From NCBI GenBank assembly GCA_001414345.1, contig LLCB01000006.1, positions 124,001-188,000 on the forward strand: 64,000 nucleotides of DNA, written 5' to 3'. The notes beneath the pieces were generated by a model. The model saw only the letters and a program-made list of their open reading frames with translations, had not been told where the DNA came from and searched no databases. This document shows positions 49,456 through 56,346 of this stretch, piece after piece. The stretch is from Hymenoscyphus infarciens. Lineage: Eukaryota; Ascomycota; Leotiomycetes; Helotiales; Helotiaceae. Within the stretch, counting starts at the first letter, position 1. Each line of letters begins with the position of its first letter. The translations under genes were made by a program, and so were the position numbers.

Positions 49456-50440
49456 TAAAAAGACGTTAAACTACGTTTTAGTACTAGTTATACTCTCTAA
49501 GAAGAGTAAACTAGTAAGATCTATAGATATTTATATCTATAGTATTTATAACTGTTTCTAGTAAAAGGCTTATAAGCCTTCTCTAAAGAAGTAAATATCT
49601 CCTTGTTTTTTTATTTATTCTTATAAGCTATAATTACTTAAATTTTATATATTATATTAATTTTAATTATTTATTAGAAATTTACCTTTACTACTTAGTA
49701 ATAATATTAAATTTACGTAATACTAATTAGTTAATGTCTAATTTTTAGCTTTAATATTATTATACTCTACTAAGAAATTTATTATCTTATTAACTTCGTA
49801 CTATAACGAATTTAACTCTATAATATAAATATATCTAACTCTTTTATATTATATTTCTTTTAATCTATTAATCTATAAAACCTCGAATATCTTAATTAGT
49901 AATTATACTTCTAATATACTCTTAGATTAACCTTCTATTATTAATATAATAGACGATTACTTTACTAAGCAGGTCTTTATAGACGACCTAAACTAGGTCT
50001 GTTATAAGATTAACTTTATAGCTTACTCTACTATAATAGGCAACTACTGACTCTTTAAGAATATACTCTCTAGTATACTTAGTTCTAATAACAACTCTAA
50101 AAGTAAAGTCGAGACCTTTATAGTTAGTAACTATAATATTCTTACTCTTAGTAATATAATACTATTTCTAGAGTAATGAATTATAATAGATATCGCTACT
50201 AGTATCTTAATTAATAGTAAAGCTTATACTTATAATACTATCTATAACATAGTTACTATAATAACTTAGTATAATAAGTTAGATACTATTATCTCTCTAC
50301 TTATTTATAAACTTAATAATAGTAAATACTAATTTACTCTAGCTACTAACGAGTCTAATACTACGATCTAGTTTAATAAAAGAGCTATTATTAGAGCTAG
50401 CTATATATTAGAGGTACTCTCTATCGTCGTTAAGAGTTAG

Positions 50441-50644
50441 AACTCTATTAACGATAACACGAAGAAGCCTACTACTACTACTAGCGATTAGAACTCTACT
50501 AGTAATAATACAAAGGAACCTACTACTACTACTAGTAGTTAAGACTCTACTAACGATAATACAAAGAAGCCTACTACTACTACTAATAGTTAGAACTCTA
50601 TTAACGATAATATAAAGGAACCTACTACTACTACTAGTAGCTTT
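50441..50644 (+). repeat. 4 x 51-bp coding tandem repeat
   Basis: Four 17-codon units starting at 50441, 50492, 50543 and 50594, each close to NSTNDNTKKPTTTTSS plus a stop codon that was probably Gln. All stay in the frame of the giant ORF. Differences are mainly transitions. Confidence 0.85.
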
Positions 50645-50712
50645 AGCGTTCTAACTACTAGTAATAGTAGTAGGTCTATTACTAGTAGTTAGAACGCTAA
50701 AGCTACTAGTAG
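50631..50712. repeat. perfect 37-bp inverted repeat with 8-bp loop
   Basis: Arms 50631-50667 and 50676-50712 are exact reverse complements; the loop is TAGTAGGT (50668-50675). It starts at the end of the 51-bp repeat array and lies in the giant ORF frame. Confidence 0.95.
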
Positions 50713-53700
50713 AGATCTCGAATCTAAGAATAAGATAGTTATTACTTATAATAAGTAAAAGAATAAGAAGTTAAGATTTATCTAACTAAAATATATTCTA
50801 CTTAAGAAATAATAAAAGATTTCTAAGGTTATAGAGATAGAAGCTAAGTTTAAGACTATATTTACTATAAATAATAAGCTATACTATCTTTTTAACTAAG
50901 TCGAGTTATTTAACAACGATAGTATCTTAGCCCTTTTAGAGTAACTTTACTTCTAGTACTTAGAATCTTATATCTACTTTAATATAGAGCTTACTCTTAA
51001 TAGTAAGTAGATATAAGACGATAAGAATGTCTCTTATAGAGAGAGATTTAACACCTCTAACTATACTTACTTTAAAACTTATCTTAATTAGAGAGCTTAT
51101 ACTATTAAAGACTTTATATATTAGAACTTTAATAAATATAGCCTATTACCTATCTTCTTAAAGCTAGACTTTAGAAAGCTAGAAGATATAAAAATTGTTA
51201 CTATTAATATTAAGATAGATATAATTAATATTACTAGTACTAATATCTCTTCTATAGTTAATCTAAACTATAATTAGATAATATAATAATTTATTAATAA
51301 AGTTAAGACTACTTAGATAAAAAAAAGCATTCTTAAATTTATATTTATTATTAATAATTACTATAGTAACCTTTCTCTTATTAGTACTAAAATCGAAGCT
51401 AATAAGAAAAAGAACTTTAATAACTTCTAGATTAAAAACATGCTTGTTTCTAATTAATTAGATATAGGTAATCTATTCTAGATTCTAGAATAAATACTCT
51501 TAAGAGTTATAAGTAAATACTTATATTATATTCTTATATTCTATAACTATAAACATATATATATACTTCTAGTTTACGTTGTTTATAATAAATTTAAGAT
51601 TATAGCTAAAGAAGCTATAGATTAGTAATTAGATAAATTCACTATAGCTATTTCTTATATTTATAGCTTAAGTAAAAAGCTATTATAATATAATTATAAT
51701 AAAGATAAAGCCTAGATTGCTACTATTAATATATAATATTATATTTATAAGAATTCTAAAAAAGGCGATTATATTAAAGTCTAATTCCTTAATCTTAAGA
51801 CTATATTATATATTAAATATAAAAGACTTAATATTAAGAATAAGTATTATTTTAATAAAAAAGTCTTAGATAATAAGAATAAATCTAATAACGATACTAG
51901 AGAATAGATCTATAGTATAGATAGTAGTAAAATAATTATTAGAGGTAATAAGAAGGAAAAAGCTAAGATAAAGAACTTATTAGAATATTAAATAGAAGAG
52001 CGATAAGCTACTATTATAGGAATTATTACTAATATACTATTCTCTCTAGATATAATCTTAATTACCTTATATACTAAAAAGGATCTACTATAGTAAGGCC
52101 TTAATAATAAGTAGGTTACTACTCGCTTTAATATTCTAATATTAAATATTACTAATATACTTTCTATCTATTTTATAAATACTTTTAATAGAATAGAACT
52201 TATATATAAGATTAAGATTACTTCTAAGATTTTAATATAGTTTTAAAATAATATTATTTAAAGTCTTAATAATAGAAGAGTATTAATAAAGAAGAATAAG
52301 CTATTCTATACTTTAATATATTATATAAAGCTATTTATAAACTTTAACTCTCTAATCTCTTAGAAAACTATAGACTTTTTTACTAAGTACTATAATAGGC
52401 CTTTCTTAGATAAATTTATTTAGAAGATAATTATAAAGTTTAATTCTAACTATTAAGTTAAATATAAGAAGTTATAAAAGCTATATATACTATTTATTAG
52501 TATTTAAGGCTATGTAGTATCTTATAAGATAGATTAAATAGAAACTCTCTTTATATTAGATTACTATAATTCTAATGTAAAGAACTAAGTCCTTCTTACG
52601 TATTCTATAAATAAGAGAGTAGATAATCTTACTAAAAAGATAGATAAGATCTTCTTATTACTTAGTATTAAGAAGATAGTTATTCGCTTTAGTAGTTTAT
52701 TAGTAGAAAAGAATAAACTTCTTAATTACTATATACTAAAGGACTTTAAGTTCTATATTAAAGACATATTAGCTCTATTATAGAGTTTTATCGAATATCT
52801 TATTTATAAAGCTATTTAGAAAGTTAAGACAAATAAGAAGGTAAGAGATTAGAGATATCTAGTATATATATAAAAGTTTAGTCTTTAAAAACATATCTTT
52901 GACTTAATTAATAGATTAGTAAAAGAAGTCGTAGAATTTTAAGCTTTTAAAATATATACTTAGAAAGTTCTCTATAACTCTAATAACCTAGACTTAAAGC
53001 TTTTAGCCTATATAGACACTCTTAATAAGGCTATATAAAGAGTTATTATAAAAGTAGATATTATTATAACTATACTAGTAATTATCTTATAATTAAAAGC
53101 CTAAGAATAGATAAGTAAATTATTTAGATTTAATATAAACAAGGCTAGTATAATAAATCTAGCTATTATAATCGTCTTAGCTACTAGTCTTAAGTTTAAG
53201 ATATATAGTATAAATAGTAATATTAAATAAATATATTATTATTTAGTCTTAAAAACAGATAAGAAAGCCTAGAATCCTAGTATAAAGTATTTTAATAATA
53301 CTATTCTAGAGTATTATAAGTATAGTAAGTATTATCTTATATATCTAAACTATTAAAGCTGAATATACGATAGTATTATCTAGAAATTCGTTAATAAAGA
53401 ATACTACTATAGCGAAATAATTAACGCTACTACTTACTATAGCTTACTTCTAGGTAATTATATAATAAAAGAGGTTAATAAGGAAAGTTTTAATCTTAAT
53501 ACTTAATTTGTTATAGTATAAGTATAAGGTAGTACTTCTAATATCGAAGCTAAAGGCACTTCTATCTTTAATAAGAACTATATTAATATTAGTAATAAGT
53601 AGATATAATATATTAAATAAAAGCTTAAGTAGTATAAGATTAAATACTTTAAGACTGTTTATATCTACTATTATAAAGTAGAAGTTAAAGCTATAGTTAT

Positions 53701-55018: not shown

Positions 55019-55225
55019 AATATAGAGATTAAGACTTAGAATATAGAGATCGAGATCTAAGATGTAGATATTAAGCCTTAAAATTTAAAGATTAAAATCT
55101 AAAATATAGACATTAAGCCTTAAAATTTAGAGATCGAGACTTAAGACGTAGACATCGAGTCTTAAAATTTAAAGATTAAGACTTATAATATAGATATTGA
55201 GACTAAGAATATAGAAATTAAGAAG
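55019..55225 (+). repeat. 10 x 21-bp heptapeptide repeat
   Basis: Ten in-frame 7-codon units of the type NIEIKTQ, DVDIKPQ or NLKIKIQ (Q shown where TAA/TAG now stands). Hydrophobic residues alternate with charged ones; this could form an extended or beta-solenoid-like rod. The last copy is shortened by one codon. Confidence 0.85.
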
Positions 55226-56162
55226 TTTATAAGAACTTTACCTAAATTAGCTACTAAATCTACTTCTTCTTTAGCTAAGGCTTTAGTCTCTTATACGTCT
55301 AATGCTTTTAGTAAATAAGTCTTTAAGCTATATATTATATACTTTAACTTTATAAATAAGCTAGATATTCTCTAAAAGGACTTATACTATACCTAGTTCT
55401 TTAATAAGTATATTATAACTAATATTAATAAGAATAAGTTATATTATAGAGTATAATTAATTGTCTTAGCTCTATAGATTTAATATAATATTAAATATCT
55501 ATTCTTTAAAAAGAAACTTGTTAATATACTAGTAAAGAGACCTATAAGTAAGGTATATAAAGCTATACTTAAAGGTACTAAGATAGAGCTTATTAAAAGT
55601 GATTTTACTATAAATACTCTTATATTTTTCCTTTATCTACTTATAGATATACTAATTAAGTTAAAGATTACTTTAAAATAACTAGATCTTATTATTTATA
55701 TAGCTAATACTTCTACTACTTCTTAGGTTATCTAAAATAGTAGTTATAATTTATATACTACTAACTATATCTTATAGATTTAAGTAGATAGTATCTACTA
55801 TAAGGTTATATAACTAATTATAACTATTATAGATTAATTAAAAGCTTAAGAGATAAAAGCTAAAAAGCAACGATTAGCTATTCTATACTATAGAATTAAT
55901 ATCTATAACAGAATAATAATAGCTAAGATACTAAGCTCTAATAATAGATTTTTTAATAAATTAAAGAATAAGAAAGGAGAGGATAATATAAAGAAGGATA
56001 AAGATAGATTAAAAGATACTATAGAAAAGTCGAAGAATAAGGATAGATTAGAAGATATTATAAAAAAGTTAAAGAACAAGGAGCTAGATAAGGCCTAAAA
56101 TCAACTTATAGTTAGTATCTCTTTTTATAACTTTAGAGGAAGACGCTTTTTTAAGAGGGATA

Positions 56163-56346
56163 TATTATAAGAAGAATATATAACTATACTAGTAGCGGAC
56201 CTATAGGTATAGATAGTTATAAATGCTCTATACTCTCCCCTTCTCTCTTTAGACGTTTATTACCACACTACATAAGAGATTACTTTCACGTATTTCATCG
56301 GGCCTAGCTATAAGCTCCTAATCTGTGATCTATCCCTTATGCTACA
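56163..56346 (+). repeat. 3' LTR of element D
   Basis: 184 bp, mirrors the 5' LTR. The left end carries more G-to-A and C-to-T changes (TATTATAAG against TGTTGCGGG), while the right end kept ATGCTACA. The flanking normal-GC sequence starts immediately after it. Confidence 0.9.

Follow-up and report, generated by a model that had tools for sequence, protein, structure and literature searches.

To understand what a fungal long terminal repeat (LTR) retrotransposon can carry in the more than 6 kb behind its pol gene, we analysed a 64,000-nucleotide stretch of the Hymenoscyphus infarciens genome (contig LLCB01000006.1, positions 124,001 to 188,000; hereafter the window), which belongs to an assembly of 65.6 Mb in 742 contigs. 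The window contains a 14.3-kb element, here termed family A, that is about twice as long as Ty3/gypsy elements usually are and that has been heavily altered by repeat-induced point mutation (RIP). A first-pass annotation had proposed that an open reading frame (ORF) of about 2,100 codons is hidden behind pol, ahead of the 3′ LTR. We found that this frame, which we call ORF3, was once coding, that it is conserved across copies of the element and that residues ~340–1420 are conserved in a diverged second family of the same genome. We consider it probable that this Ty3/gypsy lineage has kept ORF3 since ancient times as an integral third gene, with a helicase-type core resembling the superfamily 1B (SF1B) proteins UPF1 and SEN1.

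A third reading frame in a RIP-mutated element

The two LTRs of the element are identical at 156 of 184 positions, all 28 differences are transitions and the 5′ LTR has TG...CA termini. The flanking 5-bp target duplication (CTAGA/CTGGA) matches at four of five bases, and its sole mismatch is of the RIP type. These data agree with the proposed 14.3-kb LTR element and its target duplication. The unmutated-looking base was found in the 5′ LTR at 17 of the differing sites and in the 3′ LTR at 11, indicating that RIP was unequal between the LTRs. Among the 40 LTR matches listed from the genome, two LTRs lie 14.0–14.2 kb apart on six contigs (C54, C482, C265, C740, C681 and C404) and 15.4–23.3 kb apart on four further contigs (C97, C247, C346 and C259), and the 3′ end of ORF3 is also present on all ten.

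In the pol region of the window, the Pfam models RT_RNaseH_2 (E = 1.3e-8) and RT_RNaseH (E = 1.5e-8) match above cut-off, Integrase_H2C2 falls below it (E = 0.24) and the reverse transcriptase was recognised by eye alone. The integrase SH3 model SH3_Tf2-1 is also below cut-off, with an E value of 0.043 in the window and, at best, 4e-4 in copy L013. The chromodomain that had been placed at the end of pol is visible by eye in the translation, but Pfam Chromo gave no match in pol and SH3_Tf2-1 was found instead. The LTR pair, the target duplication and a gypsy-type RNase H followed by integrase class the element as a Ty3/gypsy LTR retrotransposon. It shares these features, including an integrase with a Tf2-1-like SH3, with fungal Ty3/gypsy elements (Metaviridae) of the Tf2/chromovirus-like type, and differs from them in having a third large ORF behind pol.

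The TA/AT ratio is 1.59 in the element region and 0.65–0.71 in two gene-rich stretches of the window, and the corresponding (CA+TG)/(AC+GT) ratios are 0.11 and 1.24–1.27. Strong RIP is present in AT-rich blocks, and all 27 loci that we measured are heavily mutated ((CA+TG)/(AC+GT) of 0.04–0.17). In the frame 49739+3n we counted 134 stops, compared with 242 and 408 in the other two frames, whereas the lowest-stop frame of 300 dinucleotide shuffles had 251±8 stops (minimum 220). This frame was the stop minimum in 10 of 10 consecutive 600-nt intervals (49739–55738), with one tie. The same frame was lowest in every interval in 13 of 17 full-length copies; a fourteenth, L010, deviates in one interval and then returns, and the other three shift frame, so that 14 of 17 retain ORF3 over its full length. 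Comparing the window copy with 26 other loci, we found that 139 of 169 pairwise indels, or 31 of 44 distinct ones, have a length divisible by three. Indels of 51, 21, 42, 84 and 102 nt between copies correspond to whole units of the two in-frame coding repeats already noticed in the first-pass annotation. Transversion sites among ORF3 copies are distributed over the three codon positions as 66/59/106, and a stricter count that required at least two copies gave 30/17/39, with a modest excess over position 1. The hidden ORF is therefore real, and it was once coding.

Some details of the earlier description have to be revised. The ORF had been drawn from position 49740, but copies do not agree in frame over the first ~60 codons, and the start is therefore probably near 49.92 kb. 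At the other end, the homologous frame runs 13 codons into the less mutated 5′ LTR, and the original stop may therefore lie inside the LTR. The stops had been described as nearly all TAA or TAG and as derived by RIP from Gln and Trp codons. We indeed counted 84 TAA, 47 TAG and 3 TGA, but a scarcity of TGA is a trait of every RIP-mutated frame and hence no evidence on its own. Of 153 comparable stop columns, 97 have a stop in every copy and 56 are variable, mostly to Gln (25) or Arg (22), with Trp in two; a derivation from Gln codons is thus borne out, one from Trp codons hardly. Because the same kinds of change occur in the other two frames, these columns support RIP and not the ORF3 frame. 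The Ser/Thr/Asn/Lys-rich repeat linker of ORF3 also contains a perfect inverted repeat (window 50631–50712) with 37-nt arms and an 8-nt loop, part of which is matched by other copies on the minus strand.

ORF3 conserved in two element families

Probing the genome with pol identified 30 family-A pol places (best 40 of 43 candidates scored). The pol/ORF3 junction was present at 29 of these, the exception being on C30, and 29 places, including a split one, contain the 3′ end of ORF3. Among the repeats of 38–62 kb there were no terminal repeats around 49.7–56.1 kb alone. Because the junction is present at 29 of 30 pol places, we reject a nested element and occasional cargo, two options that had been entertained for ORF3. 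We looked for terminal repeats of its own and for element copies consistently lacking it, either of which would have spoken against its membership of the LTR element, and found neither.

A protein probe of ORF3 residues 335–1087, searched with HMMER against the same genome, revealed 16 diverged matches on 15 contigs (31–45% identity, 31–35% for the long ones; E values from 2e-18 to 7e-50). Residues 901–1420 were likewise matched on 15 contigs, at 30–34% identity in long blocks and 44–49% over the first 108 residues (13 rows). We refer to the elements carrying these sequences as family B. Their pol was found at 14 places with 38–54%, mostly 45–54%, identity to the family-A pol probe. At 13 of the 14, the contig also carries ORF3, downstream of pol and in the same orientation, at a distance of 1.4–2.2 kb in 10 cases and 5–12 kb in the other three (C251, C722 and C739); the place at C125:9376 is without ORF3. 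This common gene order, together with the family-A junctions, bears out the assignment of ORF3 to the LTR element. Probes of residues 1588–2144 and 1421–1754 matched family A only, and the tail is either absent from family B or too diverged for detection there.

The similarity between the two families is detectable over residues ~340–1420, at ~30–35% identity. Family-B ORF3 was read as two pieces of one copy, which aligned with family A at 31% identity over 678 aa (E = 7e-73, with composition correction off) and 34% over 214 aa (E = 5e-28). Across 403 gap-free codons, identities by codon position were 228/256/178 and transversions 97/88/139; in a shifted register (373 codons) they were 119/112/130 and 179/205/178. 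We read this codon-position pattern as the signature of a protein that was under purifying selection before RIP. Family-B ORF3 also has ~22–26 extra codons right after the block corresponding to helicase motif Ia, at the same place in most copies (G000:C225:189114-189181 and its counterparts).

Probable helicase likeness of the ORF3 core

Reading family A against family B led us to the hypothesis that the core of ORF3 is of the SF1B helicase type, and the predicted places of the motifs were fixed ahead of the tests. The reference set comprised segments of UPF1, SMUBP2, SEN1 and ZNFX1 as well as loci found through the UPF1 core, and each codon was scored allowing for RIP; locus L050 was part of the first profile and was left out of the second, wider one. 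For the segment from the P-loop to motif Ia (segment 1), joint scoring of both families in the register of the A–B alignment (345) gave 22.9, compared with 10.7±1.8 for shuffles, none of 1,000 of which reached this score (reversed profile, 10.5). In the other register (344), 850 of 1,000 shuffles did so. The window copy alone scored 10.8, compared with 8.9±1.0 and a maximum of 11.5 in 60 shuffles. Averaged over family-A copies, the profile landed at residues 951–986, a score reached by 1 of 100 shuffles, and on family B alone it landed at the homologous place (4 of 200 shuffles). The profiles of other segments failed at the segment-1 place, and those of segments 1 and 3 failed at the segment-2 place. 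These results point to a motif Ia region in ORF3.

Joint scoring of motifs Ic–IV (segment 2, with QYRM as motif IV) gave 29.8 with lowered gap costs, which was reached by 2 of 500 shuffles (reversed profile, 21.2), and a second gap cost gave 1 of 500 on a different path. The motif II columns (DE.S/A) contain D or N followed by E or K, and those of motif III (GD..Q) are mixed, as RIP would leave them. The whole-core profile was exceeded by none of 100 shuffles, one being equal after rounding. Using hhalign, the predicted region ranked best for segment 1 (P = 0.011 in the piece and 0.059 in the core) and narrowly best for segment 3 (P = 0.14, next region 0.16), nothing was found for segment 2, and a single-sequence comparison of the core with UPF1 recovered motif Ia only (P = 0.11). 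When 14 core pieces were searched against Pfam, AAA_11 was the sole family found (E = 0.21), on a family-B piece at the predicted stretch. Single-sequence z scores were 5.0 for UPF1 and a UPF1 relative, 4.3 for C. thermophilum SEN1, 2.6 for SMUBP2, 1.7 for ZNFX1, 0.7 for yeast SEN1 and −0.6 for the bacterial relative L052.

Several results weigh against a helicase-type core. All Pfam helicase support is below the curated cut-off, and the longer version of that family-B piece (L049, 663 aa), L054 and the family-A copies tried matched no helicase family. With the wider profile on family A alone, the P-loop segment was not significant (19 of 100 shuffles), and segments 2 and 3 were reached by 76 and 33 of 100; motifs V–VI were read by eye. 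The whole-core path ends at codon 1724, past the predicted core. With the first, costlier gaps, the joint score for motifs Ic–IV was reached by 18 of 500 shuffles and the reversed profile scored higher (15.8 versus 15.2), and on family B alone segment 2 landed at the wrong place, again with a higher reversed profile. Yeast SEN1 and the bacterial relative gave no match. Database searches with ORF3, in which stops were written as X, scored 7,985–7,991 candidates each, none of them significant; the candidate list was probably crowded by AT-biased words. Profile searches of ORF3 alignments against the PDB found no helicase, and an AlphaFold model of residues 1301–2144 was not usable (pLDDT 26.6). 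Finally, the Walker A pattern GxxxxGK[ST] is not present, as the Gly before the Lys is replaced.

The P-loop Lys itself is present in 24 of 24 readable rows, and every one of these rows, like the family-B piece, has Tyr directly before it. Under RIP such a codon can arise from codons for Cys, His or Arg or stem from an original Tyr codon, but not from one for Gly. Because the Gly is replaced, ATPase activity is doubtful, and we call ORF3 helicase-like and not an active superfamily 1 (SF1) helicase. Overall, a helicase-type core at residues ~900–1400 is supported statistically, and a helicase-type origin appears quite likely. ORF3 has in common with UPF1/NAM7 and SEN1 the P-loop-to-Ia segment and, less certainly, the order of motifs Ic–IV when both families are scored jointly; it is unlike them in its P-loop, its greater length, its Tyr(Cys/His)-rich tail and the poor match to yeast SEN1.

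In the tail, the Tyr-rich segment has Cys or His in some copy at 12 Tyr columns, and it is possibly a Cys/His-rich, zinc-binding region altered by RIP. ZNFX1, Hrr1 and SAD-3, helicases with NFX1 fingers that act in RNA silencing, are like ORF3 in size and in combining a helicase with a Cys-rich region, but ORF3 matches ZNFX1 less well than UPF1. Cys and His occur in some copies of the segment, Pfam gave no match to NFX1-type zinc fingers and the spacing of such fingers was not recognised; we regard NFX1 fingers in the tail as a weak option. Pfam searches of the whole of ORF3 and of 14 copies gave nothing convincing. A match to UMP-CMP kinase in NCBIfam (E = 0.013) was judged to be due to chance, as it presumably aligned outside the P-loop of that family.

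Competing explanations and possible function

It is possible that ORF3 is a genuine conserved gene of the element but no helicase, and that the motif matches arose by chance in biased, RIP-mutated sequence. This would account for the sub-threshold Pfam scores, the failed single-segment tests, the missing P-loop Gly and the lack of an outside homologue. We nevertheless consider it unlikely, given the joint two-family score that no shuffle reached in the A–B register, the failure of the other profiles at the segment-1 and segment-2 places and the fact that AAA_11 had been predicted before it turned up. An env-like or structural protein, another option raised in the first-pass annotation, would fit the position of env in retroviruses; no search that we ran pointed there and a helicase-like core was found instead, which makes this explanation very improbable.

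Equally improbable is a separate transposon that sits inside the LTR element and was amplified along with it, as the size of ORF3 and its difference in frame from pol might suggest, since such an insert would have to lack terminal repeats, occur at 29 of 30 junctions and hold the same place in family B. We give hardly any credence to the view that RIP and AT bias produced the open-looking frame and that it was never translated. RIP does yield TA-rich DNA with odd frame statistics, and the stop columns vary to Gln or Arg in all three frames, but dinucleotide shuffles are far from the observed bias, the indels are in frame and there is homology to family B at the protein level. Moreover, in the equally RIP-mutated 14–28 kb block of the window, no frame is stop-poor along the whole length. 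The sole clearly stop-poor stretch of that block (minus strand, ~20.1–21.9 kb) is where a pol match (E = 3e-10) lies, which marks former coding DNA there. A helicase-like accessory protein, a possibility that the first-pass annotation had not named, is the best identification of ORF3.

Such a protein, of ~2,100 residues, would consist of an N-terminal region with the repeat linker, the helicase-type core and a Cys/His-rich C-terminal region. Because ORF3 and pol are in different frames and are separated by a spacer of ~300–400 nt in which no clear common frame could be seen by eye, ORF3 may have been translated separately. The protein may have bound the element's own RNA and aided its survival or copying. 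Nonsense-mediated decay would be expected to act on an mRNA that extends more than 6 kb past the pol stop, and one option is that ORF3 antagonises this decay, for example as a UPF1-like decoy. It could also counter RNA silencing, for which insect retroelement helicases offer a parallel (PMC6338049), or, just as possibly, help to reverse transcribe a long genome. With the P-loop Gly replaced in families A and B alike, we consider RNA binding or a decoy function just as likely as an active motor. More specifically, a UPF1/SEN1-type helicase could have been captured long before the two families split and kept in a modified, possibly ATP-independent form that shields the element RNA from decay or silencing. 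We offer this scenario tentatively and rate it as rather doubtful; if true, ORF3 would be a gene by which a retroelement antagonises or mimics the RNA surveillance of its host.

Added helicases have been described in insect retroelements, including LTR elements, that contain viral SF1 helicase domains (Lazareva 2015 and Morozov 2017, described in PMC6338049), and weak silencing suppression was reported for them in that paper. The fungal element would have an added SF1 helicase in common with these; as described there, the insect helicases are of viral type and, in LTR elements, fused to element proteins, whereas ORF3 is UPF1/SEN1-like, separate and very large. Boty-like elements of Botrytis cinerea have an additional gene, brtn (Zhao 2011, as cited in PMC8365987), and are thus, like the element studied here, fungal LTR elements with an additional gene. 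The cited title calls brtn antisense, whereas ORF3 is sense, and we liken the two by description, not by sequence. Among the matches listed in open-licence PMC papers, none described an LTR element of fungi that carries a UPF1-like helicase gene. What is new here is the presence of ORF3 in a diverged second family of the same genome and a core that appears to be UPF1-type helicase-like, which is unusual for such elements.

Table 1 Features of the family-A element in the window
Feature	Position	Strand	Basis
LTR retrotransposon, family A, RIP-mutated, 14,306 bp	42041..56346	+	LTR pair, target duplication, genomic pol places
5′ LTR, 184 bp; CTAGA directly before (42036–42040)	42041..42224	+	
pol region, frame of position 42240, limits approximate: RNase H, weak integrase zinc domain, Tf2-1-like SH3	44640..49500	+	Pfam, translation
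ORF3, former reading frame of ~2,080–2,140 codons, frame 49739+3n, start approximate	49920..56170	+	Stop, indel and codon-position statistics; family-B homologue
51-nt in-frame tandem repeats, Ser/Thr/Asn/Lys-rich linker, copy-variable number	50435..50689	+	
Putative SF1B helicase-like core, ORF3 residues 901–1420	52439..53998	+	Profile tests, Pfam; conserved in family B
P-loop-like site to motif Ia, residues 918–986 (predicted)	52490..52696	+	Joint A+B profile, AAA_11 on family-B counterpart
Motif Ic-II-III-IV region, residues 1105–1239 (predicted)	53051..53455	+	Joint A+B profile, columns
Tyr-rich segment, residues 1400–1600	53936..54538	+	21 and 18 Tyr per 100 codons
21-nt in-frame tandem repeats	55016..55246	+	
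3′ LTR, 184 bp; CTGGA directly after (56347–56351)	56163..56346	+	

The element is flanked by host genes on the minus strand, encoding DUF7025 (30691–31692) and Clr5 (33700–34323) proteins on one side and a Diels-Alderase N-terminal domain (57481–58101) and LCAT (63057–63980) on the other, a set consistent with a filamentous ascomycete. At 7607–8371, also on the minus strand, lies a gene whose product has a winged-helix match to TBPIP/Hop2; TBPIP/Hop2 is a meiotic factor, which fits a genome with RIP. The region 14000–28000 is a second AT-rich, heavily RIP-mutated block with many direct and inverted repeats, apparently the nested remains of other elements, and includes a pol-like remnant on the minus strand at ~20.5–21.8 kb. 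Outside the element, the minus strand at 27285–27465 is 77% identical to its LTR and is probably an old or related solo LTR.

Large extra genes are rarely kept by LTR elements. RIP conceals much of the coding content here, to the extent that standard family searches detect next to nothing in the 6 kb of ORF3. A helicase-like gene kept in two families would show that retrotransposons of fungi are able to encode an RNA-handling factor of their own, which may act on nonsense-mediated decay or RNA silencing.

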